In this document: positions 151-34,427 of the stretch, piece after piece
How the letters are laid out: every line of letters starts with the position of its first letter
How positions within the stretch are numbered: the first letter of the stretch is position 1
Assembly (NCBI RefSeq): GCF_001990485.1
Contig: NZ_LBFC01000024.1
Span: 1 to 36,071, forward strand
Length of the DNA: 36,071 nucleotides
Direction: 5' to 3'
DNA from: Thermosipho affectus
GTDB taxonomy: Bacteria > Thermotogota > Thermotogae > Thermotogales > Fervidobacteriaceae
Notes under the pieces: model-generated
Told to the model about the DNA's origin: nothing
Databases searched by the model: none
The model's input: the letters and a program-made list of their open reading frames with translations, nothing else
Made by a program: the position numbers and the translations under genes

Positions 151-954
151 TTATGTATCCTCCTTAAGATCTTTAACTTGCCCTAAACCCATAGCTGTCT
201 TATATCCCACGCCTGAAAAAAATGCAAACTTAGAAAGCAAATTCACAATCTTTGCCAATGTGTTGTTATTTCTATCAACGGAAAATACCACATCACCCAC
301 AAAACCTTTTAAGTAATAATTAGACATATATACCTTCTTTTTGTAAATTTTCATATTTGAGATCTTTATTTCATTAAAATCCTTTATGATTTCTTCCTTG
401 ATTTTCTTTGAACTGACTCTATTAAATTTTTTCAACAAATCCCCGAAGACCTTTTCAGGTTTTGGATAATACAAACAATCATTTTCTACTTTAAGTAAAG
501 TCGGGGTATAAAATCTCAGTTTTATTTCATTTTTAACATTATCAATTTTGAATAATTCTTCTTCTGTAGTAATACCCGCCCATTTACTTTGTTTTTCGTG
601 AAAATAAAGTTTTGTAACTAAAAACTTTATATTATCAATATCTAACTTCTTTTTATCAAACTTATTTTTGAACATATTTATTGCTATTGAGTTAAAAACG
701 TTGTCTTCAAGAAAAGTCATCCTTATATAATATAATTTTTCTTTTTCAATGACCAATGGTTTATCAACTTTCTTTCCCAAAAAAGAAGAAACAGTAAAAG
801 GTTTATGTCCAATATTATCATGTAGTTTCTTAGCAAGTTCACTATTATTCATCTTTAAAATACTAAAAAACATTCCGTGAATTTTTTCGCCGGGATAAGT
901 AAAAATAATTCCTGAATTTAAAGCTGTCAATTTAAAAACTAAACTGTAGAATAT
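151..954 (-). CDS. cas6: Cas6 endoribonuclease, copy 1 (end of csm operon)
   Basis: This is a CRISPR repeat RNA endonuclease that cuts pre-crRNA within each repeat. The N-terminal part carries TYPGEKIHG, the middle carries FHEKQSKWAG, and the C-terminus has the glycine-rich loop FSGVGYKTAMGLGQ typical of Cas6 ferredoxin folds. The first conventional start, TTG at 930, is about 28 nt from the GAGGTGA site at 965-959 and would remove the first beta strand. The ATA codon at 954-952 is 4 nt from that site and opens a frame reading IFYSLVFKLTALNSG. This matches the other Cas6 (IFFSLVLGLKAINSG) codon for codon, so I place the start at ATA. The gene is last in the minus-strand operon, just after csm5. 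By eye it is about half identical to the copy at 8065-8862. The family call is firm; the start is inferred. Confidence 0.93.
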   Translation of the reverse strand: MFYSLVFKLTALNSGIIFTYPGEKIHGMFFSILKMNNSELAKKLHDNIGHKPFTVSSFLGKKVDKPLVIEKEKLYYIRMTFLEDNVFNSIAINMFKNKFDKKKLDIDNIKFLVTKLYFHEKQSKWAGITTEEELFKIDNVKNEIKLRFYTPTLLKVENDCLYYPKPEKVFGDLLKKFNRVSSKKIKEEIIKDFNEIKISNMKIYKKKVYMSNYYLKGFVGDVVFSVDRNNNTLAKIVNLLSKFAFFSGVGYKTAMGLGQVKDLKEDT

Positions 955-974
955 ACTTTCACCTCATTTAAATA

Positions 975-2069
975 TTATCTCAACTCAACCTTTATCCAGC
1001 CTATGGGCGAAATAGGTTTTTCTTCTTCATCGATTAAGTAACGTCGAGAAATTGGGGGGATAGTTCCAGGATGTTTTGTAATAACCTTTGCAAATTCGTG
1101 TTTTACATCGTCACTAAGTACCGAAAAGACACTCATTGCATTTAATCCCCCACCATATCCAATATGCATTATATAGCCTTTTTCAGCTTTTATTTTTTCT
1201 ATTTTATTTGTTAATTTTTGAAAAAATTCTTTTTTTTCTTTGATATTTTTAATATATTCAAGTTCTTTGCTTATTACAAATCTATAAAATTCATCAACCA
1301 TTTTGAAAATATCTTCCAAACTTCTTGGAAGATTATTGTCAAATCTTCCTTGTTTAGATTCAAATAATTTTAAACCTTCTTCATCAAATTTTACTTCTGA
1401 TTCAAATTCGGCATTTTTAAGGATTGCTTCAAAAAAGATGTTAAAGTTCTTTTGATAAAAAGAATCCTTATTACTAACAAAAACACTTAGAGCTAAAATA
1501 GCAACCTTATCTGTAAAATTTGTATCTGAGATTTTTAAGAACTTAAGAAAATCATTTTTTGCATCTTTAAAATTTCCTACTCTAAATGAACTTTCAAGAA
1601 TTTTTGTGGCATCGTTAAGATTTTTTTTATGATTTTTTAACAAATTAAGTATTTTTTCTTCAACTTTATTTCTTAAATTTTTATTATTCATTAATATATA
1701 TCCCATAATTCCATTTCTTATACTTCCCTTAATACTACTTCCGGGAATATAAAACCTACCATCTGGATGTTTGATATTTTCTAACACTTCACCTCTAATT
1801 TTGTAATTAAATTTTCTTTTGCAGATATACCAAATATCATCGTCATTTAATACATTTTTATAATCTTCCCATTTTAGTACAGTTAATCTTCTACTATCAA
1901 CATAAAACGAACTTTTTATTTCAGGATGCCTTTTTAAAAGTTTTTTCAAAGACCTTTCCTTTAGTCTTATATATGAATTATTTCTTAAAACATAAAATAT
2001 AGGCAATAACTTTTCACCACTTCCAATGTGTAAAATAGTTAAAGGTTTTAATGAAATTTTTTTATTCAA
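975..2069 (-). CDS. csm5: Csm5, type III-A RAMP subunit
   Basis: This is the head subunit of the Csm effector, next to the 3' end of the crRNA, and is linked to crRNA maturation in characterised systems. The 364-residue protein starts at TTG behind GGTGGTGAT and overlaps the end of csm4 by 8 nt. It shows the RAMP pattern: an N-terminal strand with HIGSG, the motif DGRFYIPGSSIKGSIRNGI around residues 103-121, and a glycine-rich C-terminal segment GYGGGLNAMSVF. The middle (about 130-290) is lysine-rich and poorly conserved, as usual for Csm5. Position between csm4 and cas6 supports the call. Confidence 0.9.
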   Translation of the reverse strand: MNKKISLKPLTILHIGSGEKLLPIFYVLRNNSYIRLKERSLKKLLKRHPEIKSSFYVDSRRLTVLKWEDYKNVLNDDDIWYICKRKFNYKIRGEVLENIKHPDGRFYIPGSSIKGSIRNGIMGYILMNNKNLRNKVEEKILNLLKNHKKNLNDATKILESSFRVGNFKDAKNDFLKFLKISDTNFTDKVAILALSVFVSNKDSFYQKNFNIFFEAILKNAEFESEVKFDEEGLKLFESKQGRFDNNLPRSLEDIFKMVDEFYRFVISKELEYIKNIKEKKEFFQKLTNKIEKIKAEKGYIMHIGYGGGLNAMSVFSVLSDDVKHEFAKVITKHPGTIPPISRRYLIDEEEKPISPIGWIKVELR

Positions 2070-2931
2070 CTAAATCACCACCTAAATCAAACTTGAACAC
2101 TACTGTTGAACCAATTATATAGTAGTCATTTTGCAATTTGTTTGGTTCTCCAACGAAATTAAAATCAAATGTTGAACCTTCACTTAAATAGTAAAGTTCA
2201 TTCTTTAATTTTGGAACTATGTGTCTATGACCACGCAATTTTACTAATTTATAATATCCATTGTTTAGTTTTCTTATTTCGTCTTCATTAGGTCTTGCAA
2301 GACCAAGTAAAAGTGTTGTTGTTCCATTTTTATGAAAAATATCAGGTGGAACCTTAAATTTGGGCTCAAAAAGCCCAAACCCCCTTGTAGCATCAGCACC
2401 GAGTCCACTATCTCCTAATAATCTAACGCTAGCTTTTAGATGGTTTTCAAGATCATCTGGAAATTCTGCAATAAAATATGGGGTAAATTTATCTTTAAAA
2501 TAAATTAGCTCGATATTATACAAAGATGATGTATTTCTTACTCTATCCAAACTTACGACTAATCTATTATCTATTTTTACAGGAGAATCTTCGAAAAAAA
2601 TAGACTCTTTGAAATTATTGGATAACTTTGAAGCAAATACATATTGAGCTTTTTTTAATTTTTTTGGTTCCAGTTCAAGCTTCTCAGGTGGATATGTGTT
2701 AAAAAGAAAAGGTTTAGGTATCAAATATTCTTCACCAAACTTAAATAATAGAGAAGAAACCTTTAAACTCTTTGCTAGCTTATGCGCATCATCACCAAAT
2801 AATCTAAATGCATTATATATAATTGCCGAATATATTGTAGTAGATCTTACGGTATTTAATGTATCATCAGTTTCATTGCCCACTCCAACTCTTAATGGAG
2901 TTTTTATAATAAGCTCTACTATTAATTTCAT
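2062..2931 (-). CDS. csm4: Csm4, type III-A RAMP subunit
   Basis: This subunit caps the 5' end of the crRNA and contacts Cas10. The N-terminus (KLIVELIIKTPLRVGVG) is the first RAMP strand. A 'TVRSTTIYSAIIYNAFRLFG' element follows, equivalent to the S/T-x-x-L-y-s-A-l motif of Csm4, and a glycine-rich loop LGADATRGFGLF occurs near residue 190. An upstream in-frame GTG exists at 2940. The ATG at 2931, about 5 nt after a GGTGAT site, is the better start and gives 289 residues. It overlaps csm5 by 8 nt and lies 27 nt downstream of csm3, suggesting coupled translation. Confidence 0.9.
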   Translation of the reverse strand: MKLIVELIIKTPLRVGVGNETDDTLNTVRSTTIYSAIIYNAFRLFGDDAHKLAKSLKVSSLLFKFGEEYLIPKPFLFNTYPPEKLELEPKKLKKAQYVFASKLSNNFKESIFFEDSPVKIDNRLVVSLDRVRNTSSLYNIELIYFKDKFTPYFIAEFPDDLENHLKASVRLLGDSGLGADATRGFGLFEPKFKVPPDIFHKNGTTTLLLGLARPNEDEIRKLNNGYYKLVKLRGHRHIVPKLKNELYYLSEGSTFDFNFVGEPNKLQNDYYIIGSTVVFKFDLGGDLVE

Positions 2932-2958
2932 TAATATCACCTTCTTTTAAAAGAAAAA

Positions 2959-3717
2959 TCATTTTCCATTTAGCATTTCCTTAATTATCTCATCAAATTT
3001 TTCATCTTTTTTCAATTCTTTTCTCACGATTTTTGAAGGATCACCAGAAATATAGTACTCTACAGGTTTATAAATTATTTCCTTTATTTCAAACTTAACT
3101 TTTCCATTGCCTCTACTTCCACCGCCACCAAGGTAATCATCTTCTACAAGTTCAAGTGCTTGTTTTATCAAATTCAAATCTTCAATGCAATGTTTTTCAT
3201 TTTCATTAGTGTAAATTAACTCAAAACCAAATTCTGCTCCAGCTGGGACACGCTCTATTGGCCTTGGAACAGCGGCACATGTTATTCTATCAAGGGAATT
3301 TTCTGTTTTCCATTCAGCATATCGTGTGTCGGTCTCCATGTTTTCTAATTTTTTAATTGATTCTTCCGTCAAAAATGCATCTCTTACAATCAATCTAGAA
3401 GGAATATTTTCCTCTTTGCTTGCACCATAAACTCTACAAATTTTACAATCTGGATCCTTGCATTCATGTCTTCTAATTTTATTCTTACGTTCAACTAATT
3501 CTAATTTTTTGTTTAACGCTCTTTCCATTAATGCTCTCATTTTTCCCTTTAAAGAGCTACCAGGAACGTAGGGTTCACCGTTTATTGGATTTCTCACAAT
3601 TGGATTATCCATACCACCAATGGAAATTCCTAAATCTTTTCCTCCAATATGAAGACCCGTTAAAACCTTTATAGTACCTTTTATTATAAACTTTCCTAAT
3701 AATTTTCTTTCGTCCAT
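2959..3717 (-). CDS. csm3: Csm3, backbone subunit and target RNA slicer
   Basis: Csm3 is the repeated backbone protein that cuts target RNA every 6 nt in type III-A complexes. The 252-residue sequence has the RAMP start GTIKVLTGLHIGG and then GGMDNPIVRNP, where D37 matches the catalytic aspartate of the family. The motif YVPGSSLKGKMRALMERAL follows, then a probable zinc site H84, C86, C91 and C94 (HEC..., C-x-x-C). The C-terminal glycine-rich loop is YLGGGGSRGNGKVKF. A GGAGGTG site lies 7 nt before the ATG. Retention of D37 suggests that RNA slicing is intact. Confidence 0.95.
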   Translation of the reverse strand: MDERKLLGKFIIKGTIKVLTGLHIGGKDLGISIGGMDNPIVRNPINGEPYVPGSSLKGKMRALMERALNKKLELVERKNKIRRHECKDPDCKICRVYGASKEENIPSRLIVRDAFLTEESIKKLENMETDTRYAEWKTENSLDRITCAAVPRPIERVPAGAEFGFELIYTNENEKHCIEDLNLIKQALELVEDDYLGGGGSRGNGKVKFEIKEIIYKPVEYYISGDPSKIVRKELKKDEKFDEIIKEMLNGK

Positions 3718-3734
3718 CTCACAACACCTCCTAA

Positions 3735-4187
3735 TTAATCTTTTCCACCATAGTATTTGTGATATGCCAAAATTGCATCGTAAAATTTTTTAAAGGTTTC
3801 AAAGTCTTTTGAAGTTTTAACTTTATCAATTGCTTTTCCTATTATTTTTTCAAAGTCTTTATAAACATCGCTTTTCGTTCTACCTGCTTGATATGCAAGA
3901 TAAACTTTTACAAAACTTAATTCGTCAAGAATATCTTCTTTGAATTTTTCTTGATCATTTTCATACTTCATTTTATTTGAAATAAATTTTTGCCAAAATT
4001 TTGAAATATAGGAATGAAACTTTCTTATTTGATTAGCTTTAAAATTTTTACTCAAGTGCTCTCCAAACTTTTCAGCATCACTTATTAAGTCTTCCATTTT
4101 ATAATATGCTAAAGAATCAAGCGAAGAAATCCTCTCTAAAATACCTTTTACAAGACTTGAAGTATCTTTGGTTTTTTTATCATGCAT
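3735..4187 (-). CDS. csm2: Csm2, small subunit of the Csm complex
   Basis: This is a 150-residue, all-helical, lysine-rich protein in the position of Csm2, between cas10 and csm3. Csm2 forms the small-subunit filament along the crRNA-target duplex. The C-terminal part (FVKVYLAYQAGRTKSD, then a helix ending FYDAILAYHKYYGG) resembles the family's conserved KvyLaYqagR segment. The start ATG at 4187 overlaps the cas10 stop in TGATG. A GTG 3 nt upstream is an alternative. GGAGGT precedes both. Confidence 0.85.
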   Translation of the reverse strand: MHDKKTKDTSSLVKGILERISSLDSLAYYKMEDLISDAEKFGEHLSKNFKANQIRKFHSYISKFWQKFISNKMKYENDQEKFKEDILDELSFVKVYLAYQAGRTKSDVYKDFEKIIGKAIDKVKTSKDFETFKKFYDAILAYHKYYGGKD

Positions 4188-6367
4188 CACTTTCTACCTC
4201 CTCTATTTAATAAATCATAAAATTGGAGTACAACGTTCAAACCTGGAAATTCTACTTTTTTATTTTTGATAAGCTCCTCTAAAATGTTCTTTTCTTTTTC
4301 ATTATTGCTTCTGCTCATCAAATAAGCTAAAAAAACTTTGTCATATTTACTAGGACTAACTGACATATTTAAAAGTTTTCTAACGAGAGATCTACTTAAT
4401 TCGTCCTTTGAATTACACAATTTTTTATATAATTCATATGTTTTATTGATGAATTCGTTAAATTTTACTACTGAAACATTTTCTAAATAAAATTTTCCAT
4501 CTTTAAAGACTCTCTTAATTCCGTTAGAAAAAGCTATTGAGTCTTTTAACATTAACTCTTGCTGTGAATTTATACTTACAACCTCTACATTTTCCTTTGC
4601 TTTTGATTCAGAAATATCAGATAATTCCATAATAAACTTCATACTATCTTTTTCATCTACAAGTGCATATCCTGCAGAAATGGTTATAAATTTGTTACTT
4701 ATAAATTTAGAAAATTCTTTTCTCAAAACAACTGCAAAATTAAGAATTTCATCCCAACCTCCAAGAACAAATAAATCATCTCCTCCAGAATAAATCACAG
4801 CTAAATTTCTATTTTCAACCAATTTATACAAATACAGTTTAAAAAAGTATGAAAGTAGTCTAGAAAGAGCGCTAATTCTAATTAAAGTTTTAAGTGCTAA
4901 ACCTTCTCTAAAGATTTTTCCAAGATTATCCACATCAACTTTTAAAGCAGCTAACTTTTTTCCTGGTACATTTTTCGCCATTTCTGTCAAACTTTGCGTA
5001 CTGGAATAGGCAAGAACTTCAAGTCTAATTAAGTTTTTGTCGTTATTATCAAATTTATAACTTTCTTTTATCTTAAATCCAACTTTTTCGGGAATTGAAG
5101 AGAATTTATATTTTTTTCCAAAAATTTCAAATACATCTTCTTCATTTTTATTTGTTAAAACAATGTATTTCTTTTTATTATCCATAAGTTCTTTACCAAT
5201 GTTGTAAAGTGTTCTACAAAAATTACATGCAATTTCTTCTTCGTCTGCTCGCAAGGAAAACAATTGAGTGGTAAGTGCTCCACATACCTTACAAGTTTTC
5301 ATATTATTTCCATTTCTTCTTATCTTAAATAATTTCTCAAGTTCAAAGTCACTAAAAAGTCTATTTTTCTTCTCGTTGATCTTATGCGCTAACTTAGAAA
5401 AAACAACGTTCATATTTTTTACATCGGAAGGTTTAAATGAAACGTATTCCATAACTATACTTAAATCTAAATTGTTTTCAATGAACCAATTATTCACTTT
5501 TTGTTGGATTTTTTTCAATATATTCTTATTTTTTTCTGTGTTAGAAAGTACTAAATAAAAGTGTCCTCCACCAATAAAGTGTATATTTACTCTGTAAAAT
5601 TCCGTTTCCTCTAAAAGTTCATTGACAATTATTTCTTGTAACAATTCAATGAAAAAACTTCTTCCTCTATAAGATCTCAAAGCACCTTTTGATGAGACTT
5701 TGGAGATAAATTTTTGAATTCCAGAAACATCTCCACCAATAAGCAAAAATGTTTCCTTTTCATCTAAATTTTGCAAATCTCCAAAAGATGTTATTTTACC
5801 ATCTGTATAATCATATAAACAAAGTGACAACATTGCCGAAACTTTTCTATAATCATAGTAAGAAACATCAACTGCCTTTTTTGAAAAAATAAGATATGGA
5901 ACAAAACTAAAATGTTTCTTTATCACTGTTTCCAATGAATTTGGATTCAACGAATCTGATAATATTTTGAGATCTTTTTCAAAAGAATAGAAAACTTTTT
6001 TTATTTTTTCTTGTGAGAGTTCTCTATCAGAGGTGGATGATAACAAATCACTTATTACAAAAGGTTCAAAAAACGAATTTTTGCCTGTATTAAATACTAA
6101 TTCATTATTTACTATATTTTCATTGAAAACCTTTGAAAAAATATTTTCTAAATTACTAAATTTTGAGGTTTCAAATTTATATGGTGTGTTGTCGGATTTC
6201 AATAAACTATCCACGTATGATATATACCAATCTATTTTTTCATTAAAAGTTTTACTGTCAAAATATGTTAATTTATCTTTTTTGTCTAAAAAATCAAGGT
6301 TATTATTTATAATGTCATTTAATCCATACGTCAAAGCTCTAACAACAATCTGTTCACGTTCTTTCAA
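4187..6367 (-). CDS. cas10: Cas10/Csm1 with cyclase motif but degenerate HD domain
   Basis: Cas10 is the large type III subunit. Its palm domain turns ATP into cyclic oligoadenylate when target RNA is bound. The GGDD motif (YSGGDDLFVLGG) is at residues 528-531, and a zinc ribbon CKVC...CNFC spans 359-384. The N-terminus is unusual. Where Csm1 proteins read ALLHDIGK, this one reads RALTYGLNDIIN, and the later 'SLYDH' element reads SYYDYRK. Both histidine signatures are therefore missing and DNA cleavage by this domain is unlikely. TTG at 6367 lies behind GGAGGTGA with good spacing. An upstream ATG at 6394 lacks a binding site. The gene follows the CARF effector directly and overlaps csm2. Confidence 0.95.
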   Translation of the reverse strand: MKEREQIVVRALTYGLNDIINNNLDFLDKKDKLTYFDSKTFNEKIDWYISYVDSLLKSDNTPYKFETSKFSNLENIFSKVFNENIVNNELVFNTGKNSFFEPFVISDLLSSTSDRELSQEKIKKVFYSFEKDLKILSDSLNPNSLETVIKKHFSFVPYLIFSKKAVDVSYYDYRKVSAMLSLCLYDYTDGKITSFGDLQNLDEKETFLLIGGDVSGIQKFISKVSSKGALRSYRGRSFFIELLQEIIVNELLEETEFYRVNIHFIGGGHFYLVLSNTEKNKNILKKIQQKVNNWFIENNLDLSIVMEYVSFKPSDVKNMNVVFSKLAHKINEKKNRLFSDFELEKLFKIRRNGNNMKTCKVCGALTTQLFSLRADEEEIACNFCRTLYNIGKELMDNKKKYIVLTNKNEEDVFEIFGKKYKFSSIPEKVGFKIKESYKFDNNDKNLIRLEVLAYSSTQSLTEMAKNVPGKKLAALKVDVDNLGKIFREGLALKTLIRISALSRLLSYFFKLYLYKLVENRNLAVIYSGGDDLFVLGGWDEILNFAVVLRKEFSKFISNKFITISAGYALVDEKDSMKFIMELSDISESKAKENVEVVSINSQQELMLKDSIAFSNGIKRVFKDGKFYLENVSVVKFNEFINKTYELYKKLCNSKDELSRSLVRKLLNMSVSPSKYDKVFLAYLMSRSNNEKEKNILEELIKNKKVEFPGLNVVLQFYDLLNRGGRK

Positions 6368-6395
6368 GCAATTCACCTCCAATTTGACCAACATT

Positions 6396-7511
6396 TTAAA
6401 AAATGTCTTTTAAAAACTCTTCAAACTTAATTTTTATTAATTCTAACTCTCTTGAATCTCTTTTGGTGGTGTATGCCCTAAAATGCAATATGCCCAATTT
6501 TGTTGGTAAATTTACCACCAATTTATCTCCATTTGTCTTTACTCTTGGGGACCCGGATTTTTCTCTTTGTGAATATTTAAATACTTCAACTTTTGTTATA
6601 TATTTAAATTTTTCAAGTCTTTCTTTTAATTTAAATTTTTCAATCAATTCTTTAGAATGCTGTTCTTTTGAACTTGATTGGAATATTAAATTTCTTTTTC
6701 TTTCAACTAATTCAACATTTTTTGATAAATGGTAAAATTTATTTTTTATTATTTCCAAATAAATCTGTCCCATTGGACTTATTGCTAGATATTTTTTCCC
6801 ATCTATCATTGCTTCATCAAAGAATACCTTTGATTTTAAAGATAATGATTTATACAAATTTTCAACTTCCTTAAGTGGTTTTATATCATTTTCCAACTCT
6901 TCAAACAATGTTTTTGCTTCAAAATATATACTATCGTCTAAATCTATAGGTAATGGAATTAACTCTATTACTTCTGGAAATCTTTCGAATCTATAATATA
7001 CGGGAACACTTAACCCTTGTCCCAAAGCAAGTGCAAAAGCTATTTGGGCTTTGTATCCACCTGTTGCATTTATTATTACTTCACCAGAATGCCTTGCTAT
7101 AATACCAGCTATTTCTTTTATTAAATTTCTAAGTCCATGTATTTTAAAATCATTAGGTTTATCATCTCTCAACTTTGAAATAACTTTAACTTCAACATTT
7201 TCAAAATTATATCCTTTTTTTACTTTAAAGAAATTTTTCAATATAGTTCCGATTTTTCTTCCATCGTCTGTATCTGATACCAAAAAATAAAGATTTTTTC
7301 TTTCTGTTAAATATCCTTTCTTTACGATACTTGCAATCGAATTAATCTCTGCTCCAAACCCCCTAAATTCTTCTGGATCTTCATTACTTTCCGAAAAATA
7401 ATTTACTATAGCCTCTAATTGTGAGTTCTTGTAATACTCATTTAGTTTTTCATCCCTACTCAAATTACTAATCATACTTGCCCCTACTGTACATATTAAC
7501 GTATTAGCCAT
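6396..7511 (-). CDS. CARF-domain effector with RelE-like C-terminus (Cami1-like)
   Basis: This 371-residue protein is first in the csm operon. Residues 1-about 190 form a CARF domain: an N-terminal strand and loop LICTVGASM, a DTDDG segment near 80-84, and the signature INATGGYKAQIAFALALG near 147-164. The CARF domain binds cyclic oligoadenylate made by Cas10. A middle segment ending KKYLAISPMGQIYLEII looks like a winged helix. The last 90 residues (helices, then strands GDKLVVNLP and LGILHFRAYTTKRDSRE) resemble a RelE mRNA interferase. No HEPN R-x4-6-H motif is evident in the C-terminus, which argues against Csm6/Csx1. Order and length fit CARF-HTH-RelE proteins such as Cami1. The RelE call is inference; the CARF call is firm. 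AGGAGGGATAGG precedes the ATG. Confidence 0.82.
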   Translation of the reverse strand: MANTLICTVGASMISNLSRDEKLNEYYKNSQLEAIVNYFSESNEDPEEFRGFGAEINSIASIVKKGYLTERKNLYFLVSDTDDGRKIGTILKNFFKVKKGYNFENVEVKVISKLRDDKPNDFKIHGLRNLIKEIAGIIARHSGEVIINATGGYKAQIAFALALGQGLSVPVYYRFERFPEVIELIPLPIDLDDSIYFEAKTLFEELENDIKPLKEVENLYKSLSLKSKVFFDEAMIDGKKYLAISPMGQIYLEIIKNKFYHLSKNVELVERKRNLIFQSSSKEQHSKELIEKFKLKERLEKFKYITKVEVFKYSQREKSGSPRVKTNGDKLVVNLPTKLGILHFRAYTTKRDSRELELIKIKFEEFLKDIF

Positions 7512-7643: not shown

Positions 7644-7696
7644 TAAAAATATACACATAAATACTTAACTATAACGAAATGATTATAACACAAATA
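7644..7696 (-). repeat. Left arm of 53-nt inverted repeat upstream of CARF gene
   Basis: Read on the minus strand this begins TATTTGTGTTATAAT and contains TTTCGTTATAGTTAAGT. It matches 7898-7950 on the plus strand at 48 of 53 positions; the five differences are all transitions. Confidence 0.85.
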
Positions 7697-7861: not shown

Positions 7862-7894
7862 TTTGGTATCAGATACAGACGATGGAAGAAAAAT
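7862..7894 (+). pseudogene. 33-nt fragment of the CARF gene, inverted copy
   Basis: These 33 nt are identical to the reverse complement of 7252-7284, which encodes residues 77-87 (LVSDTDDGRKI) of the CARF effector. The plus-strand frame reads the same residues and soon stops. It ends 3 nt before the right arm of the inverted repeat. It is best read as the remnant of a second CARF gene or of a rearrangement. Confidence 0.8.
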
Positions 7895-7897
7895 ATG

Positions 7898-7950
7898 TAT
7901 TTGTGTTATAATTGTTTCGTTATAGTTAAGTGTTTGTGTGTATGTTTTTA
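7898..7950 (+). repeat. Right arm of 53-nt inverted repeat upstream of second cas6
   Basis: Partner of 7644-7696, in opposite orientation and separated by about 200 nt. It lies about 115 nt upstream of the second cas6 start and could be an operator or part of a duplicated promoter. Confidence 0.85.
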
Positions 7951-8064: not shown

Positions 8065-8862
8065 ATTTTCTTTAGTTTGGTATTAGGACTTAAGGCAATA
8101 AATTCTGGAGTTATTTCAACATATCCTGGGGAAAAGTTACATGGATTGTTTTTTGATATATTAAAGAATGCAAATGAAAGGTTAGCTGAACAGGTTCACG
8201 AAGAGGATAACTACAAGCCGTTTACTGTTTCATCAATTTTAGGAAAGAAAACGGATAGATTGATTATTATAGAAAAAGGAAGAAAATATTATATAAGAAT
8301 AACTTTTTTAAACGAGGAAGTTTTTAATTTTTTTACCATAAAAATATTTAAAAGTAAATATTCAAAAGAGAAATTAAAAATCAATGATCTTGAGTTTTAT
8401 ATTTCAAATGTGATATTTCATGAAAAACAAAGTAAATGGGCGGGGATTTTAACGGAAAATGAATTATTGTCAACAAATTATAATAATGACGTTATAAAAC
8501 TGCGATTTTATACTCCTACATTATTTAGGATAGGTGATAAACATTTAGGTTATCCTTTCCCCGACAAAGTTTTTAAAAGTCTTTTAAAAAAATTCAATAA
8601 ATATGCAGAGTTTAAAATAAATGAAGACTATGCTAATATGTTCTCAGATATAGAAATATTAAATAAAAGAACTTACAAAAAGCGGGTATATATGAGAAAT
8701 TATTATTTGGATGGATTTATAGGAACTGTTGAATATAAGATACCAACAGACGATAGGAATTTTTTCAAAGTAATACATATGTTGGCTGATTTTGCTTTTT
8801 TTTCTGGAGTTGGATATAAGACAACTATGGGATTTGGGCAAGTAAAAAAGTTGGGGGAATAA
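8065..8862 (+). CDS. cas6: Cas6 endoribonuclease, copy 2 (head of adaptation operon)
   Basis: This is a second Cas6, paralogous to the copy at 151-954. Shared blocks are TYPGEKLHG, KPFTVSS, FHEKQSKWAG, LRFYTPTL and the glycine loop FFSGVGYKTTMGFGQVK. AAAGGAGGG at 8051-8059 sits 5 nt before an ATT codon at 8065, giving IFFSLVLGLKAINSG. The nearest standard start, TTG at 8077, is 17 nt away and falls inside the first beta strand. I prefer ATT because the paralogue has the same layout with ATA. The gene starts the CAPP-cas1-cas2-ago operon, 4 nt before CAPP. It may serve this array or supply 5'-hydroxyl guides to Ago (inference). Confidence 0.92.
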   Translation: MFFSLVLGLKAINSGVISTYPGEKLHGLFFDILKNANERLAEQVHEEDNYKPFTVSSILGKKTDRLIIIEKGRKYYIRITFLNEEVFNFFTIKIFKSKYSKEKLKINDLEFYISNVIFHEKQSKWAGILTENELLSTNYNNDVIKLRFYTPTLFRIGDKHLGYPFPDKVFKSLLKKFNKYAEFKINEDYANMFSDIEILNKRTYKKRVYMRNYYLDGFIGTVEYKIPTDDRNFFKVIHMLADFAFFSGVGYKTTMGFGQVKKLGE

Positions 8863-8866
8863 CTTT

Positions 8867-10486
8867 ATGAATTTTAAAGAATTAGCATTAAGGGCCGAGG
8901 AAAATCTTGAATTTGAAAAAGCTCTTGAATATTTTGAAAAAGCCGAAGAAGAATTATCTGTCGAAGATGGAACACTAATAAGATATGGTGAATTACTATT
9001 TGATTTTCAAAAATACGAAATAGCAAGGAAAGTATTCGAAAAGATTGTTTCTAAACAACCTAAAAAGGAATATCTTTTAAGGCTAGCAGAAATATACGAA
9101 GAAATTAGTATGTTGGACAAAGCACTAGAGATATATGAAAAATTAAACATAACAGATAGAGTAAAGAATATAAAAGAACAATATGAAACAACTAATCCTA
9201 GAAGAACAATTTTAAGAAAGTTTTTAGAGTTATTTTCTGGAAGAGAAGATGTATTTGCAGTTCAGCTAAACGACGGGACATATAGACCTATTAGGCGTTC
9301 AATAAATTTTAATGACGTAAAAAAACATATTTCTGGGAAAACAACTATTGGAATATATCAACTGAAAAAGAATGATGAAATAAAATTTGCTGTTTTTGAT
9401 GTGGATATAAAGAAGAGTTTTTTGGAAAATAACAAAAATACGTATTTTGAAGAAGCTAAAACTGTTACTTTAAAAATTTCATCGATTTTGTCTCAGTATA
9501 ATATAAAAAATTATATAGAATTTACAGGAAACCGTGGATATCATGTTTGGTTCTTTTTTGATGAGGCATTATCAAGTTACAAGGTTAAAGTCTTTATGGA
9601 GTCAATATTGAAAAATATACATTTAGAAGAATCGATAGGTATTGAGGTTTTTCCAAAACAACCAACTTTAAACGGCGGGTTGGGGAATCTAATAAAAGTC
9701 CCCTTAGGATTACATAAAAAGACATATAAAAAAGCAGTTTTTGTGGATCAAAATTTTGAAGTTATAAAAAATCAATTAGATTTTCTTTTAAAAATAGAAT
9801 ATAACAGCAAAGAACATATAGAATCTTTATTTGACGAAATAATAACGGATTCCGTGCAAAGTTATAATTTCCAAAAAACCACATACAAAAAAAGAAAAAA
9901 CACTTCTATAAAGAAAGAGTTAGTAAAATCATTAGAGAAAGATAATTTAAGTGAATTTCATAAAGTAATTAGTAATTGCCATGTTTTATACCAAATAATA
10001 CAAAAAATAAAGAGGGATGCATATGTTTCAGAAATAGAAGAAGAAATTCTCATAAAATCTTCAATTAAAGCTATAAATGGAAGGGAGCAATTAATTGAAA
10101 TTTTAAAGAATACAATAAACTTTGATTATGATAGATTCAAAAAAATAGAACATCAAGTTGGTGAAATTCCTATATCTTGTAATAATATTAGAAATATTAT
10201 TATTAAATATAATTTATCTCTAAGTTTAGATAAATGTTTGTGCAAGTTTCCTGGTTATAATACACCGTATTCCTTTGTGAAAGATTTTGACGAAATTATC
10301 GAAGAATTTTCCGTGGAAGAAATAGTTAAAAAAATTATAGAAAAAACTTCTGAAAAGTTTGAATTAGAACGGGAAATAAAAAGCTTAAAAAAGATACTTT
10401 TGGAAAGAATGGGTGAAAATACAAAAATGACAGTGGGAATATGGACTATAAGAAAAAATGGAAATGATATTGAAATAATTATATAA
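8867..10486 (+). CDS. CRISPR-associated primase-polymerase (CAPP)
   Basis: CAPPs are archaeo-eukaryotic primase/polymerases found with cas1-cas2, proposed to help make or fill spacer DNA during adaptation. Residues 1-about 105 form tetratricopeptide-like helices (ALEYFEKAEEEL, ALEIYEKL). The primase core covers about 125-310, with FAVFDVD (D178 and D180, motif I), TGNRGYHVWFFFDE (H226, motif II), GIEVFPKQ and NLIKVPLGLHKKTYKKAVFVD (D294). The C-terminal domain has C371, C438, C457 and C459, possibly a zinc or iron-sulfur site as in primase large-subunit-like domains. It lies 4 nt after cas6 and 18 nt before cas1. The primase fold and catalytic residues look intact. The CAPP name rests on context and domain order. 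Confidence 0.88.
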   Translation: MNFKELALRAEENLEFEKALEYFEKAEEELSVEDGTLIRYGELLFDFQKYEIARKVFEKIVSKQPKKEYLLRLAEIYEEISMLDKALEIYEKLNITDRVKNIKEQYETTNPRRTILRKFLELFSGREDVFAVQLNDGTYRPIRRSINFNDVKKHISGKTTIGIYQLKKNDEIKFAVFDVDIKKSFLENNKNTYFEEAKTVTLKISSILSQYNIKNYIEFTGNRGYHVWFFFDEALSSYKVKVFMESILKNIHLEESIGIEVFPKQPTLNGGLGNLIKVPLGLHKKTYKKAVFVDQNFEVIKNQLDFLLKIEYNSKEHIESLFDEIITDSVQSYNFQKTTYKKRKNTSIKKELVKSLEKDNLSEFHKVISNCHVLYQIIQKIKRDAYVSEIEEEILIKSSIKAINGREQLIEILKNTINFDYDRFKKIEHQVGEIPISCNNIRNIIIKYNLSLSLDKCLCKFPGYNTPYSFVKDFDEIIEEFSVEEIVKKIIEKTSEKFELEREIKSLKKILLERMGENTKMTVGIWTIRKNGNDIEIII

Positions 10487-10504
10487 ATAAAATTAGGTGA
10501 AATA

Positions 10505-11509
10505 ATGGTAATTTACATTACTCAACAGGGCACGGTACTTTCAAAAAAACAAGGAAAATTAATCGTGAGCAAAGAAGGAAATATCATTTCTGAAATTCCA
10601 TTGAATAAGATAGATAAAGTTAACTTAATGGGAAATATATCTTTAACTACACCAATAATCAACTATTTTTTGAACAAAAAAATAGAAGTAATTTTTATGA
10701 CTCAAAATGGAAAATATCGTGGAAAGTTATATACTGACGATTATAAAAATGTATTACTGAGATTGAAACAGTATGAGCGGTCTAGCGATAAACAATTTAA
10801 ACTAAAAATGGCAAAAGCCATAGTAAAAGGAAAACTAAAAAATTACTATGATTTTTTGATAAACAAAAGCAAACATCTTCCAAAGGGGCAATTAGGTAAA
10901 GAGATAGCGACTATAAGGGTCATGATATCAAAGATAGAGCAAGCTAAAGATATAGACGTAGTGAGAGGCCTTGAAGGTGTTGGTACAAAAAGTTATTTTA
11001 AAGCTTTTTCAAGGTTAATAAAAAATCAAAATTTTAAATTTGAAAAAAGGACGATGAATCCACCAAAGGATCCAATAAATGCAATGTTATCATTTGGATA
11101 TTACTTATTATACAATGAGATTATGGCTGCTATAAATATAGTAGGACTGGATCCTTATTTTGGAAATCTTCATACAGTTGAAGTTTCTAAAAAATCTCTT
11201 TTATTTGATCTGGTTGAAGAATTTCGAAATATATTAATTGACAGTCTTGTCATAAATATGATTAATAGAAATGAATTTAATCAGTCTGATTTTATAAAAA
11301 AAGAAAAAAATATAGTTCATTTCACAGAAAATGGTATGAAAAAATTTATATCAAAATATGAAAAATGGTTAGGACGAAAAATGAGATATCATTTGGATGG
11401 TGAAACAAATTATATACGAACAATATTTCAAAAGCAAGTACGACATTATGCACGAGTTGTACTTGGTGATGAAGATAAATATATTCCTTTCTACAGGGTG
11501 ATAAAATGA
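10505..11509 (+). CDS. cas1: Cas1 integrase
   Basis: Cas1 is the catalytic subunit of the Cas1-Cas2 complex that inserts new spacers at the leader end of the array. The N-terminal beta domain begins VIYITQQGTVLSKKQGKL. The metal-binding residues of the helical domain are visible: E157 in RGLEGVGTKSYF, H223 in YFGNLHTVEV and E238 in LLFDLVEEFR. Its 334 residues are the usual length. AGGTGA precedes the ATG, and the last codons overlap cas2 by 4 nt. There is no fused reverse transcriptase; the neighbouring CAPP may fill a related role. Confidence 0.97.
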   Translation: MVIYITQQGTVLSKKQGKLIVSKEGNIISEIPLNKIDKVNLMGNISLTTPIINYFLNKKIEVIFMTQNGKYRGKLYTDDYKNVLLRLKQYERSSDKQFKLKMAKAIVKGKLKNYYDFLINKSKHLPKGQLGKEIATIRVMISKIEQAKDIDVVRGLEGVGTKSYFKAFSRLIKNQNFKFEKRTMNPPKDPINAMLSFGYYLLYNEIMAAINIVGLDPYFGNLHTVEVSKKSLLFDLVEEFRNILIDSLVINMINRNEFNQSDFIKKEKNIVHFTENGMKKFISKYEKWLGRKMRYHLDGETNYIRTIFQKQVRHYARVVLGDEDKYIPFYRVIK

Positions 11510-11784
11510 TGTATGTTATAAGTTATGATATTACTAACGATAAAAGAAGAAGAAAATTAACTAAATACTTAGAAAGTTATGGAGTAAGGGTTCAATATAG
11601 TGTTTTTGAAACGGAGCTTAGTAGGGAACAATTAAGTATATTAATAAGAGAGCTTAAAAAAAGGATAGATGAAAAGGAAGATACTATAAGAATATATCCA
11701 ATTTCAAAAGATGCGAGAAAATCTATTACTACGTTGGGAAAGGATAAAGGAAGTTATTATAAAGATGATTTTCTTATAATATAA
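11506..11784 (+). CDS. cas2: Cas2 adaptation protein
   Basis: This 92-residue ferredoxin-fold protein is the structural partner of Cas1. The first strand is MYVISYDITNDKRRRKL, with the conserved aspartate of the YDI motif, followed by LESYGVRVQYSVFE, the classical Cas2 second block. It overlaps cas1 by 4 nt (ATGA) and has two adjacent ATG codons. The ago start is 20 nt downstream. Confidence 0.97.
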   Translation: MMYVISYDITNDKRRRKLTKYLESYGVRVQYSVFETELSREQLSILIRELKKRIDEKEDTIRIYPISKDARKSITTLGKDKGSYYKDDFLII

Positions 11785-11804
11785 AACTTATGAGGAGAGG
11801 AAAA

Positions 11805-13757
11805 ATGTTCCTAAATCTTTATAGGCTTAAAATACCTTATAAAGTGAAAAGATTATATTTTTCAAATTCATCTACTCCAGCGGAGATATTATCAAAAAAC
11901 TTAACACGTGTAAATAACATAAGGTTCTACAATTCTTCAAAATTGGTATGGGTTGAAATACCAGATGTTGATTTTTCTATAAAGCCTTATCAAGCTAAAA
12001 ATTATTTATTAGACAAATTTGAAGTAATAGATGAATCTCAGGATCCTATACTTTTTGTAAAAACTTTATATAACTATGTAAAAAAACAATTTATAGATAA
12101 AGGTTATTATTTTAAAAGAAGAAGCATCTTTATTTCCAATGAAGATAAATTTTGCTTGAATACTAACAAAGATATAAATGCACATGTTAGCTATAAGATA
12201 AAGTTGTATAAATTAAATGGCAAATATTATTTTTCTATATTGCCAAGATTTACCTTCCTTTCTAAAGATCCAGCATTATATTCAAGAATAAAAAGCGCAT
12301 ACCTACTTAATATTAAAACAGGTAAGACCTTTTTGTATGTTTCAGGAGAAGACGAAAAAATAAAAATAAAAGTTGATGATGAAATAGTTACAGTAAAAAA
12401 TAACGACATTTATTATTTTAATTTTAGTTCGACTGAAGCAAAAGAATTAGGATTTTCGAAGGAATTACCACAAATTTATAAAAATCTAAATATGATTTAT
12501 TCTAATATGGAGAAGAAACTTAGTTTCTTAAACAATGTAATAGAAGTTGATATTCCATATAAAATTTTACAAAAAGATATTAAGAAACCAAAGATAACCT
12601 ATATATTCAAAAATGGCATTTCTGAAAACAAAAAGGATATTTTCAAGTTTTCATTTTATAAACCACCTAAAAAATTAAATATCGCATTTTTATTTTCTTC
12701 GAAAAAACAAGTGAAAAGTTTGTATCCTGTGTTAAAAAGTACATTTAATTCAAAAAATTCTTTGTTTTATATTGCGCTTAATCAATTAGGTATCAAAAAT
12801 ATAACAAATGTCAGATTTGAAAAAAATCCAATTAATAAAAAAGCTATTTTTTTCTATGACCCTGATACTCTTACTATAAAAGATAGAGAATTTTTATCGA
12901 ATAAAAGTTACAAAATAATAACTATTGTTGTATTGGATGAGCACGTGGGAAACATAGATAATTTACTTAAAAATGCACCAGATAATCTAATAATTGTTCC
13001 AATATTAAAAAATAATTTGTTAAAAATAAAGCCATACATTTTTAAAAGTTATATATACAAATTGCTTCTCTTTTGTACTGATTCGATGCCTTTTTTGTTA
13101 AAAAATCTTGATTTAAGAAGAAAAATACTGTATGTAGGAATTGATTTAAGTCATGATACATACAATAGAAAGACACATTTAGCTATTAGTGCTGTAACAA
13201 ATTTTGGGAATATCATATATTTAAGTAGATACAGAAATCTTATGCTTAACGAAAAATTAGAATTAGAAATTTTGGAAAAAGAATATGTAAGATTAATGGA
13301 TAAATATAAAGAAAAAACAAATAGTTATCCGGAAATTGTGTTTATTATAAGAGATGGTGTTTTCTTGGAAGATATTAAAGTAGTTGAAAACATATTAAAT
13401 ATGATCGAAGTTAAATATGTTCTTGCTGAAGTTAATAAAAATTCTAATATAAATTCATGTTTAAATCTAAAGGAGAATATAATAAGGCTTGAGAAAAATT
13501 CGTTTGTATATTTTCCAAGTTCCTATAATCACCAAAAAGGTGTAGAAATAAATATAATAAGGAATTGTACAGATTATTCATTTGAAAAAATAGCAGAGCA
13601 TATATATGGTTTAACAAAAATCAACCCCCCTTCTCCTTTTTCAGAACGTAGGTTGCCATATCCATTGTATATTGTTAACAAAGTAGCTTTAAGTGATTAC
13701 GAATGGAAAATTTATGTGCCAATTGGAAAGGATAAAATTTATAATTTTATTAGGTAA
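11805..13757 (+). CDS. ago: CRISPR-associated prokaryotic Argonaute, MpAgo-like, catalytic tetrad intact
   Basis: This is a long prokaryotic Argonaute, a guide-directed nuclease. The PIWI domain holds D447 (YVGIDLSHD), E483 (LMLNEKLE), D517 (FIIRDGV) and N625 (YPLYIVNKV). As I recall it, the published tetrad of Marinitoga piezophila MpAgo is D446, E482, D516 and N624, so this one matches with a constant offset of one residue. MpAgo prefers RNA guides with a 5'-hydroxyl. The MID region is about 290-430. The N and PAZ-like parts precede it and are weakly conserved. An ATG at 11790 is in frame, but GAGGAGAGG at 11792-11800 serves the ATG at 11805, giving 650 residues. It is last in the cas6-CAPP-cas1-cas2 operon and directly precedes the CRISPR leader. 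Confidence 0.93.
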   Translation: MFLNLYRLKIPYKVKRLYFSNSSTPAEILSKNLTRVNNIRFYNSSKLVWVEIPDVDFSIKPYQAKNYLLDKFEVIDESQDPILFVKTLYNYVKKQFIDKGYYFKRRSIFISNEDKFCLNTNKDINAHVSYKIKLYKLNGKYYFSILPRFTFLSKDPALYSRIKSAYLLNIKTGKTFLYVSGEDEKIKIKVDDEIVTVKNNDIYYFNFSSTEAKELGFSKELPQIYKNLNMIYSNMEKKLSFLNNVIEVDIPYKILQKDIKKPKITYIFKNGISENKKDIFKFSFYKPPKKLNIAFLFSSKKQVKSLYPVLKSTFNSKNSLFYIALNQLGIKNITNVRFEKNPINKKAIFFYDPDTLTIKDREFLSNKSYKIITIVVLDEHVGNIDNLLKNAPDNLIIVPILKNNLLKIKPYIFKSYIYKLLLFCTDSMPFLLKNLDLRRKILYVGIDLSHDTYNRKTHLAISAVTNFGNIIYLSRYRNLMLNEKLELEILEKEYVRLMDKYKEKTNSYPEIVFIIRDGVFLEDIKVVENILNMIEVKYVLAEVNKNSNINSCLNLKENIIRLEKNSFVYFPSSYNHQKGVEINIIRNCTDYSFEKIAEHIYGLTKINPPSPFSERRLPYPLYIVNKVALSDYEWKIYVPIGKDKIYNFIR

Positions 13758-14026: not shown

Positions 14027-15653
14027 GTCCGAATAGTATTTCTCTCTGAAAGAGATGGAAACTGGGTCAACGACATTCTTTACGGGGACAAATAATGCCC
14101 CACAAGTCCGAATAGTATTTCTCTCTGAAAGAGATGGAAACACCACGCGTATCTCAGAAGCATACATGCTTCTGGATACGAAGTCCGAATAGTATTTCTC
14201 TCTGAAAGAGATGGAAACAACTACATTATCAAAAACCAATTTCATGTTGCATTCTAGTCCGAATAGTATTTCTCTCTGAAAGAGATGGAAACATCACAAT
14301 TCCGTACAGTGGGAATTCAGTGGTGTAAATTAGTCCGAATAGTATTTCTCTCTGAAAGAGATGGAAACTTCAAGGCATTTGGACTTGCTAAAAATGGTTC
14401 GGTCGTTAGTCCGAATAGTATTTCTCTCTGAAAGAGATGGAAACTTGGACTCGCTTTTTTCTATAGCTTGACCAAGCTTTATCAGTCCGAATAGTATTTC
14501 TCTCTGAAAGAGATGGAAACAACTTGCGACGGGCGACATCTTTGTAATTTACACCACTGAATTCGTCCGAATAGTATTTCTCTCTGAAAGAGATGGAAAC
14601 TCTTTTTAGACCTTCTAAGTCTCCTTGTTAGCATTTCTTGTCCGAATAGTATTTCTCTCTGAAAGAGATGGAAACAGTCCAGTTTCTGTTTAAAAGTATT
14701 TTAGCTAGCTTTGTTGGTCCGAATAGTATTTCTCTCTGAAAGAGATGGAAACTACCATTAGCTACTAGATCTTTTAGCTGACGTTTAGTGGTCCGAATAG
14801 TATTTCTCTCTGAAAGAGATGGAAACCAAATTACAAAGATGTCACCTACGGAGAGTTTGCTACCGGTCCGAATAGTATTTCTCTCTGAAAGAGATGGAAA
14901 CTATGTTCAAGAACAAAGGCCCAGCCGGCCTTGTCGGGTTTGTCCGAATAGTATTTCTCTCTGAAAGAGATGGAAACTAATTTCTGGTGGTATATCTGAG
15001 ATATCTGGGATATGTCCGAATAGTATTTCTCTCTGAAAGAGATGGAAACTAATTTCTGGTGGTATATCTGAGATATCTGGGATATGTCCGAATAGTATTT
15101 CTCTCTGAAAGAGATGGAAACTCATAGACTTTTCCTGTATCACCATTGAATCTAATGAAACGTCCGAATAGTATTTCTCTCTGAAAGAGATGGAAACTAA
15201 ACAAGCTCGCTTGCAAGTGAATCTCCATTAGAAAACGGTCCGAATAGTATTTCTCTCTGAAAGAGATGGAAACTAAACAAGCTCGCTTGCAAGTGAATCT
15301 CCATTAGAAAACGGTCCGAATAGTATTTCTCTCTGAAAGAGATGGAAACAAGATGCCTTTCTTGGTAACGCTCTTGATCGCAGCAGAGTCCGAATAGTAT
15401 TTCTCTCTGAAAGAGATGGAAACTTACTGCTATCAAACTTCAAAAATCCTATGCTTTCTAAAATGTCCGAATAGTATTTCTCTCTGAAAGAGATGGAAAC
15501 AAAGTCTTTACTGCCGTTTGTATATTCTGTTTATCTTGTCCGAATAGTATTTCTCTCTGAAAGAGATGGAAACTCGTCCCAGTCCCACCCAGCAAGTTTC
15601 CTTGCCGGGGGAACCAGGTCCGAATAGTACTTCTCTCTGAAAGAGATGGAAAC
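14027..15653 (+). CRISPR. CRISPR array, 22 repeats and 21 spacers
   Basis: The 36-nt repeat runs from GTCCGAATAGTATTTC to AAGAGATGGAAAC. It can fold as TCTCT-CTGAA-AGAGA, placing Cas6 cleavage at the 3' base of the stem and leaving the 8-nt tag AUGGAAAC, typical of type I/III systems. Repeat starts are 14027, 14106, 14183, 14257, 14333, 14409, 14485, 14565, 14640, 14717, 14791, 14866, 14942, 15014, 15086, 15162, 15238, 15314, 15388, 15465, 15538 and 15618. Spacers are 36-44 nt. The last repeat carries a T-to-C change (AGTACTTC), marking the old end, so transcription runs rightward from the leader. Spacers 13 and 14 are identical, as are 16 and 17. Spacer 4 overlaps the reverse complement of spacer 7. 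Several short open frames on the minus strand here are translations of repeats and are not genes. Confidence 0.99.
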
Positions 15654-16320
15654 CGTTTAGGACTGCCTTGCCATCCGCACTCGAATTACGGAGGAAATTA
15701 TGCACCGCAAATTCCGAGGAATGTTATTTTAAGATATTTTAAAGAGGGGGATTTTATCATCGATTTCATGATGGGAAGTGGTACGACTTTAATTGATGCG
15801 AAGTTGTTAAATAGAAGAGCAATTGAATATGATATAAATCCCGAAGCACTTAAAATCACAAAAGAAAATTTAAATTTTGATGGAATTTTTTTGTATAAAC
15901 CTATTGTTGAGATAGTGGATGTAAAATTGAGAGTATAGATTTAATTATTACTCATCCACCATGTTTAAATATAACCAAACATTCAGATAGAAAAATAAAA
16001 GAAGATCGTTTCAATATTTCAAATGTAAAAAAGTTCTGCGAGGAATTTGAGAAAGGGATTAAAGAAGTTTATAGAGTACTTAAACCTAATAAATACTGTG
16101 CAATATTAATTGGCGATACAAGAAAAAAGTGCATTATATTCCTTTGTCGTATTATATAATGAAACTTTTTAAAAAAATGGTTTTGTATTGAAATAAGATA
16201 TTATAAAAGCTCAACACAATTGCAAATCTACACCTTATTGGCAAAAACAAACTAAAAATATAATTTTTACCTGATTATGCACAAGCATTTATTTATTTTT
16301 AATTTCAATTTTAAACTCTT
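15654..16320 (+). pseudogene. Decayed DNA methyltransferase, 5' end replaced by the CRISPR array
   Basis: Starting in the codon next to the last repeat, the frame reads LGLPCHPHSNYGGNYAPQIP, then an AdoMet-binding motif DFMMGSGTTLIDAKLLNRRA and DINPEALKITKENL. It stops at about 15936. With a shift it resumes as IDLIITHPPCLNITKHS (the catalytic S/D-PP-Y/W position, here THPPC) and EVYRVLKPNKYCAILIGDT. A further shift gives HYIPLSYYIMKLF and later NCKSTPYWQKQTK. This fits an amino-methyltransferase (N4-cytosine or N6-adenine) with at least two frameshifts and no N-terminus. The protein is surely inactive. Confidence 0.8.
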
Positions 16321-16324
16321 TAGC

Positions 16325-16690
16325 AAAATTCTAAAAAAATGAAAGAATTAAGCAATTGTCTAAAATATTATTAAAATATCCTGAAGTTGTCAATGTTTTT
16401 CCAATTCTCATTGCGGAGAGAGTTAAAATAACAAATTAGAAATTTTCGTTCCTGAAAATTGGAAATTCATCACTTTTGAATTCAAACCAGAAAAAGTTAA
16501 TCCTGAAAATATACCAGATTGTATGAAATTTTGTAAAAGAGAAAGAATTATTGATTTATTTGATAAAATTAAAGATTTGTATGATTATCTCTTGGTGTAG
16601 AGGTAGGTATGGATACTAATGCTACAAAAAAATAGAAGTGGAGAATTTTTCGGAAAACTTTGTCAAAGAAAAATTGCGAAGCTAATAACT
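16325..16690 (+). pseudogene. Decayed type II restriction endonuclease (DpnII-like)
   Basis: Pieces in different frames read SKILLKYPEVVNVFPILIAE, then LEIFVPENWKFITFEFKPEK, then ERIIDLFDKIKDLYDYLL, then GVEVGMDTNATK, then NRSGEFFGKLCQRKIAK. The pattern 'fPiLiAeR ... GVEvGlDTNarKNRsG' is one I associate with DpnII/MboI-type endonucleases. At least three frameshifts or stops break it. It follows the methyltransferase relic in the same orientation, so the two look like a dead restriction-modification pair. The family assignment is from memory of motifs. Confidence 0.6.
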
Positions 16691-16699
16691 TTATTTTTC

Positions 16700-16830
16700 A
16701 TTCCTTCTCCAATATTGTCATCCTGAGGAACAAAGCAACGAACGATATTTGATTAGATAGTATTAGAAAATGTTAGCGAGATTAGAAAATTGATAAGAAG
16801 ATAAGATTCTTCAACGACTTAATTTACCTA
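16700..16830. repeat. Possible MITE-like intergenic element
   Basis: The string GTCATCCTGAGGAACAAAGC followed by AACGAACGAT resembles the common bacterial intergenic repeat beginning GTCATCCTGAGGAACG. AGATTCTTCAACGAC occurs about 90 nt later. Only one copy is in this window, so the call rests on recall of the consensus. Confidence 0.3.
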
Positions 16831-16908
16831 TATGTAATTTATTAGCAAATTTGTATTAAAAACAATTTAGTAAAATTAAAACATGTTTCCAAATCGGGGG
16901 GTAAAGCT

Positions 16909-21957: not shown

Positions 21958-21993
21958 TTATATGCAATATAATGTACCTTATATTGCATATAA
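21958..21993. repeat. Palindrome family, copy 1 (ATGCAATATAA-N6-TTATATTGCAT)
   Basis: Here the arms are 15 nt and perfect (TTATATGCAATATAA and its complement) around the 6-nt centre TGTACC. The same 11-nt core arms with a 6-nt centre recur at 26360-26387 and 34293-34320. The sequence may be an operator, a REP-like element or the end of a small mobile element. It lacks the T-run of a typical terminator. Confidence 0.85.
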
Positions 21994-34096: not shown

Positions 34097-34427
34097 ATTA
34101 ACTATGTGTTTTCTAGCCTCTCAAACAATTCGCACAACAAATTACCTGTTGTATTCAAAAATAAGATGGTTATAATGTTGAAATATATAATATAGCATAT
34201 AAACAAAAATATAAAACCCTTAAATTAGATAAAGTGGTTATAAAGGATTTTATTGAGGTGGCAAAGATATATTTGTGACTTTTTCTCGATTGATGCAATA
34301 TAATAACTATTATATTGCATATATTTTGAGTATCTTATATAGTTAATCAAAAATATATTTTTATATTTTTATGATATAATCATTGTTAAAGTAAAATTAG
34401 TAAAATCTAAATAAAAGGAGGATATTC
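34097..34427. other. Intergenic region with palindrome copy 3
   Basis: No gene is visible in this 331-nt AT-rich gap. It holds the third palindrome and a TTCAAAAATAAGA string shared with the gap before RNase H. Confidence 0.55.
34293..34320. repeat. Palindrome family, copy 3
   Basis: ATGCAATATAA, then TAACTA, then TTATATTGCAT. The pairing extends to 13-nt arms around AC. It lies about 110 nt before the MFS start. Confidence 0.85.

Follow-up and report, generated by a model that had tools for sequence, protein, structure and literature searches.

The window analyzed here, a 36,071-nt stretch of Thermosipho affectus DNA, carries at 8065-13757 on its plus strand the gene order cas6b-CAPP-cas1-cas2-ago, in which successive genes are separated by 4, 18, -4, and 5 nt. 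These values agree with the gaps or overlaps of at most about 20 nt given by the first-pass annotation, and such spacing suggests that the five genes (here called the module) form one operon. A csm/CARF operon in divergent orientation and a second Cas6 gene had also been described, and both are present in the window, in a minus-strand set that reads carf-csm1-csm2-csm3-csm4-csm5-cas6a. The genes are as follows.

8065..8862, plus strand: cas6b, a Cas6 endoribonuclease of the module clade (TIGR01877, 97.8 bits; PF10040; N-terminal alignment with the conserved His; tree)
8867..10486, plus strand: CAPP (NF040561 [PrimPol_Msp], 599 bits, residues 11-511; PF22548; structure model)
10505..11509, plus strand: cas1 (PF01867, 318 bits; TIGR00287, 294 bits)
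11506..11784, plus strand: cas2 (PF09827, TIGR01573)
11790..13757, plus strand: ago, an MpAgo-like long Argonaute (NF048006, 765 bits; PADLOC "PIWI linked to type III")
6396..7511, minus strand: CARF effector of the CARF7/APE2256 family, DUF2103 type (PF09651; PADLOC CARF7-CARF_DUF2103, E 1e-121)
4187..6394, minus strand: csm1/cas10 (TIGR02578, 441 bits, profile positions 61-753 only)
3735..4190, minus strand: csm2 (43-46% identity to csm2 in the csm operons of relatives)
2959..3717, minus strand: csm3 (55-57% identity to csm3 in the csm operons of relatives)
2062..2940, minus strand: csm4 (TIGR01903)
975..2069, minus strand: csm5 (TIGR01899)
151..954, minus strand: cas6a, the second Cas6, of the module clade (TIGR01877, 80.6 bits; 53% identical to cas6b)

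The window Ago matches NF048006 over its full length (residues 8-644 of 655) and above the curated cut-off of 700 bits, and it shares 49% identity with MpAgo (5i4a/5ux0) across 636 aligned positions. It had been called catalytically complete, and the alignment supports this prediction: the DEDN tetrad is intact, with D452, E488, D522, and N630 all matching MpAgo D446, E482, D516, and N624. Of the published residues of the MpAgo 5'-OH pocket, three were tested; K418 is kept (K424), and Y379 and K403 are replaced by H385 and N409, at two positions that also vary in other family members. Because two of the three differ, the guide preference of the window Ago may differ from that of MpAgo, an RNA-guided nuclease that prefers 5'-OH RNA guides and cleaves ssDNA/RNA (PMC5435312). 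Like the genes for the MID-OH group 5 pAgos, the window ago lies in a CRISPR locus that also has cas1 and cas2.

CAPP comprises TPRs (residues 1-110), an AEP primase-polymerase domain (residues 113-328), and a C-terminal domain with invariant cysteines; with all three present, the window protein is a CAPP_A of the TPR type. Its predicted structure matches the solved Marinitoga CAPP domain (7p9j/7nqd) with an E value of 5e-22 and 57% identity. Across nine homologues, D178, D180, and H226 are invariant, as are C371, C438, C457, and C459 of the C-terminal domain (window 9977-10243). The spacing of the first three cysteines is reminiscent of the iron-sulfur domain in the large subunit of primases, but we found no structural match. 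Work on Marinitoga piezophila CAPP (MpCAPP) has established that the enzyme primes and extends DNA and is a strand-displacing polymerase, that its C-terminal domain binds Ago and the remainder binds Cas1, and that the Cas1-Cas2 of the same operon integrates spacers (PMC8211822). Ago cuts were there proposed as entry points for CAPP, in a model of Ago-dependent adaptation (Zabrady 2021, PMC8211822).

We surveyed 103 Thermotogota genomes for these genes. Ten encode MpAgo-type Ago (NF048006), and exactly these 10 encode full-length CAPP (NF040561); a further three contain only a distant primase. In all 10 carriers ago and CAPP adjoin, together with cas1 and cas2, a co-occurrence with a chance of 4e-14 when descent is ignored. 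Nine genomes besides that of the window retain the core gene set, which puts the arrangement far beyond chance. A neighborhood survey had been named by the first-pass annotation as a possible refutation of its proposal; the adjacency proved not to be confined to the window strain, and the side-by-side position of ago and CAPP in 10/10 genomes carrying either upholds the idea of a conserved, co-inherited gene set.

The order cas6-capp-cas1-cas2-ago is found in the window genome (G000) and in G022, G026, G019 (whose ago copy is cut by the contig end), G088, and G100. The remaining carriers are arranged as capp-cas1-cas2-ago with cas6 in a neighboring cmr operon (G091), as capp-cas2-ago-cas1 (G013), or as capp-cas2-viperin-ago-cas1 (G004 and G008). 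The module accompanies csm in G000, G022, G026, and G019 and cmr in G088 and G091; because it is found with both, its tie appears to be with adaptation and not with a particular effector. Trees of Ago, CAPP, and Cas1 agree in their main groups and place the window copy with genomes of family f9, not with its own family, f1. This concordance, with the window copy inside the group of another family, points to transfer of the module as a unit. Our searches found no module on viruses or plasmids; a scan of genome contigs with a single Ago query gave no match, and a scan with an Ago alignment gave one named contig, from a Thermotogota bacterium.

The variable order, with capp-cas2-ago-cas1 in G013 and viperin inserted in G004 and G008, could be taken to mean that the locus is a loose defense cluster, in which Ago is an independent innate defense gene that lies beside CAPP-cas1-cas2 and shares nothing but a promoter with it. 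We regard this as very unlikely, given the all-or-none co-occurrence in 103 genomes and the concordant trees; moreover, no free-standing MpAgo-type gene was found among the 103 genomes, and physical binding has been published (PMC8211822).

The viperin genes lie between cas2 and ago, at 4645-5508 on the minus strand of locus L041 (G008) and at 6346-7209 on the plus strand of L042 (G004), and are recognized both by PADLOC (pVip, E 1e-49) and by similarity to a viperin of known structure (PDB 6b4c, E 1e-15). Viperin occurs in 4 of the 103 Thermotogota genomes; the copy in G087 is not beside CRISPR genes within the stretch read. In the open-licence literature, we found no report linking viperin to CAPP or to CRISPR-Ago. 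Viperins make chain-terminating nucleotides and CAPP is a polymerase, and the viperin-bearing relatives thus pose a separate, testable question.

Both window Cas6 proteins score above the TIGR01877 cut-off and contain GEKxHG, along with an N-terminal His invariant in 8 sequences. The probable start of cas6b is an ATT at 8065, 5 nt past AGGAGGG; the first ATG, GTG, or TTG is the TTG at 8077, and 8065 is preferred because homologues align from exactly this point (IFFSLV.. versus IFYSIV..). The probable start of cas6a is an ATA at 954 on the minus strand, with a TTG at 930. Judged by the N termini of homologues, both genes appear to use rare start codons shortly past Shine-Dalgarno-like stretches. 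In a tree that also sampled 28 further Cas6 proteins, all of which fall outside, the Cas6 of Ago-bearing genomes form one 100/100 clade of 11 proteins from 10 genomes, cas6a and cas6b included; the branching order within the clade is not settled. The first-pass annotation had spoken of a dedicated second Cas6. The second gene exists, but both Cas6 proteins belong to the module clade and the single operon of relatives has one Cas6, which argues that this second gene is not an added component of the pathway.

The region between the two halves of the locus contains the following elements.

7898..7950, plus strand: promoter-leader element preceding cas6b-ago; its extended -10 is TGTTATAAT
7644..7696, minus strand: a second, inverted copy of this promoter-leader element, preceding carf-csm
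7862..7894, plus strand: a scrap of the CARF gene, a 33-nt exact copy (33/33) of 7252-7284 on the minus strand, 3 nt before the plus-strand promoter copy

The two 53-nt promoter-leader copies are 91% identical and have TGTTATAAT and an early transcribed stretch in common; a whole-genome search found no further copies. The CARF scrap beside the plus-strand promoter is probably a duplication scar, and we infer that the promoter was captured by a duplication that dragged the scrap along and put both operons under one control signal. In G022 and G026, carf-csm1-5-csx22-cas6-capp-cas1-cas2-ago runs on one strand, with one extra gene before cas6 in G026. The one-piece operons of G022, G026, and G019 have the same gene families and the same relative order of csm and module genes as the window, but they run in a single direction, with one module-type cas6 and an HD-intact Csm1, whereas the window has split, divergent halves, two module-type cas6 genes (each half has one at its end or beginning), and two promoter copies. 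A simple duplication of the whole operon would fit the two cas6 genes and the two promoters but was rejected, the divergences being unequal: the DNA of cas6a and cas6b is 64% identical, compared with 91% for the promoter and 33/33 for the CARF scrap. For the same reason, the promoter was probably copied only after the cas6 pair had arisen.

The effector is of type III-A (Csm), with csm1 to csm5 present and the Cas10 GGDD motif (YSGGDD) in Csm1. The window Csm1 is without the HD-nuclease residues: the HDIGK of homologues is replaced by YGLND, and neither the next His nor the HH pair is present. The HD site is usual, though not obligatory, in type III-A Cas10, and alignment shows it kept in all 27 other Csm1 proteins of relatives with readable N termini. 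Another csm1 of the window genome, on contig C2, retains the HD site. The genome also contains two further cas1 genes, on contigs C2 and C5 (the latter within a 521-aa open frame), so the module is not the sole route of adaptation in this genome.

The loss of HD in the window Csm1 alone, next to an Ago with an intact tetrad, raises the question of whether Ago is chiefly an interference enzyme, to which crRNAs made by Cas6, either whole or trimmed to the spacer, supply guides for the DNA cutting that Csm1 has lost; the link with CAPP-Cas1-Cas2 would then be more one of coexpression than of function. Cas6 cleavage leaves 5'-OH ends, the kind of end that MpAgo prefers, which would suit such a role. 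We nevertheless think this explanation unlikely. Ago also lies beside HD-intact Csm1 in G019, G022, and G026, so that loss of HD does not generally go with Ago, and Ago is found beside cmr systems as well; direct binding of CAPP to Ago is documented in Marinitoga (PMC8211822); and untrimmed crRNAs would put a repeat-derived tag in the Ago seed. A fuller scheme, to which we give somewhat less credence still, has the Cas10 of this lineage giving up DNA cutting and Ago, loaded with Cas6-made 5'-OH crRNAs, becoming the DNA-cutting arm of type III-A, with its cuts feeding CAPP and Cas1-Cas2 in an Ago-primed adaptation. A Cas10 without its DNA-cutting site is a natural variant useful for testing Ago apart from Cas10.

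Downstream of ago lies the array.

14027..15653, plus strand: CRISPR array with 22 repeats of 36 nt (GTCCGAATAGTATTTCTCTCTGAAAGAGATGGAAAC) and 21 spacers, 19 of them unique

The array begins 269 nt past ago, and the genome has no other array with this repeat. Arrays of Ago-bearing genomes have a common 36-nt repeat family, GTC-GAA...CTCTCTGAAAGAGATGGAAAC; the stem in G100 is TCCCTGAAAGGGA, a compensatory change. Three Ago-less genomes (G036, G047, and G050) also have arrays of the module repeat, and stray copies occur elsewhere, a pattern consistent with loss of the module. Directly past the last, slightly altered repeat, 15654-16900 holds the apparent remains of a broken DNA methyltransferase frame. 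Three similar intergenic palindromic elements (ATGCAATATAA...TTATATTGCAT) are found in the window at 21962-21992, 26360-26390, and 34293-34323.

Some spacers of the array are related to one another. Spacer 7 overlaps spacers 4 and 11 in opposite orientation, indicating that acquisition at this array is not strictly strand selective. Primed acquisition would yield overlapping spacers, and these make up 17/133 of the spacers in Ago- and CAPP-bearing arrays compared to 18/380 in others (Fisher P = 0.004); as the overlapping spacers of the former come from 3 of 11 arrays and the spacers are not independent, we take it as a hint only of primed acquisition. Spacers 13 and 14 (14978-15085) and spacers 16 and 17 (15198-15313) are exact adjacent duplications. 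Spacer 2 (14142-14182) forms a near-perfect hairpin (z about -7), and hairpin spacers are seen in arrays of relatives with and without CAPP. That hairpin-rich spacers might be traces of CAPP snap-back was considered and rejected, since array L144 of a CAPP-less genome is proportionally equal (3/10). No credible target was found in phages for the spacers of the array, or in viral contigs for the 20-nt core common to spacers 4 and 7.

Taken together, we believe that the locus probably encodes a dedicated MpAgo-CAPP adaptation module acting with type III, an estimate that covers the module and its role and leaves the source of guides aside. On this model, transcripts of the array would be cut by Cas6 at the stem of the repeat to give 5'-OH crRNAs, as expected from Cas6 chemistry, and the Csm complex, loaded with crRNAs, would sense invader RNA and signal via GGDD and the CARF protein, as expected from their families. 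Ago would cut complementary single-stranded invader DNA or RNA, with Cas6 products as obvious candidate guides. CAPP, bound to Ago and Cas1, would prime and copy DNA at Ago cut sites to make double-stranded prespacers, fill gaps left by integration, or do both, and Cas1-Cas2 would insert the prespacers into the adjoining array. The duplicated promoter-leader would place both split halves under the same control. Use of crRNAs as guides by Ago, priming of adaptation by Ago, and the single pathway from RNA cleavage to guide handling suggested by the first-pass annotation are best regarded as hypotheses. In another conceivable scheme, the main task of CAPP would be to repair gaps once spacers have been integrated, and Ago, guided by array transcripts, would clear the array of R-loops or aberrant integration intermediates; crRNAs can pair with the array they come from, and CAPP displaces strands (PMC8211822). 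Action of Ago at arrays is, however, conjecture, and of the explanations weighed here we hold this one the least probable.

The union of these genes, put forward by the first-pass annotation, turns out to have been published (PMC6299218; PMC8211822), including binding of CAPP to Ago and to Cas1 and the adaptation model. Every MID-OH pAgo is found in a CRISPR locus near cas1 and cas2, where cas6, primase, and cmr have also been seen (Ryazansky 2018, PMC6299218), and a later study described the CAPP-cas1-cas2-ago operon together with the contacts among its proteins (Zabrady 2021, PMC8211822); nearly every part of the window locus belongs to this spacer-acquisition module known from Marinitoga and relatives. 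New here are a type III-A example whose operon is split and which has two Cas6 proteins, twin promoters, and an HD-less Cas10; the all-or-none co-occurrence of Ago and CAPP, the private Cas6 clade, and the shared repeat family in 10 genomes; and the viperin-bearing version of the operon in two relatives. Our survey merges two published links, of Ago and of CAPP each with cas1 and cas2, into one all-or-none module, and there is now one defined gene set in which to ask where an Argonaute obtains its guides and whether it feeds spacer acquisition.

Two known systems are closest. The MpCAPP-Cas1-Cas2-Ago operon of M. piezophila resembles the window in its four genes, their order, the TPR-AEP-CTD architecture of CAPP, and a nearby array (PMC8211822), but it is described as type III-B, whereas the window operon adjoins a csm operon of type III-A, is led by its own cas6, and has a second cas6 in the csm operon. 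The group 5 MID-OH pAgos (Ryazansky 2018, PMC6299218) share with the window a long-A pAgo beside cas1, cas2, cas6, and primase, a type III locus, and a retained catalytic tetrad; the window Ago differs from them in two of the three pocket residues tested (H385 and N409).
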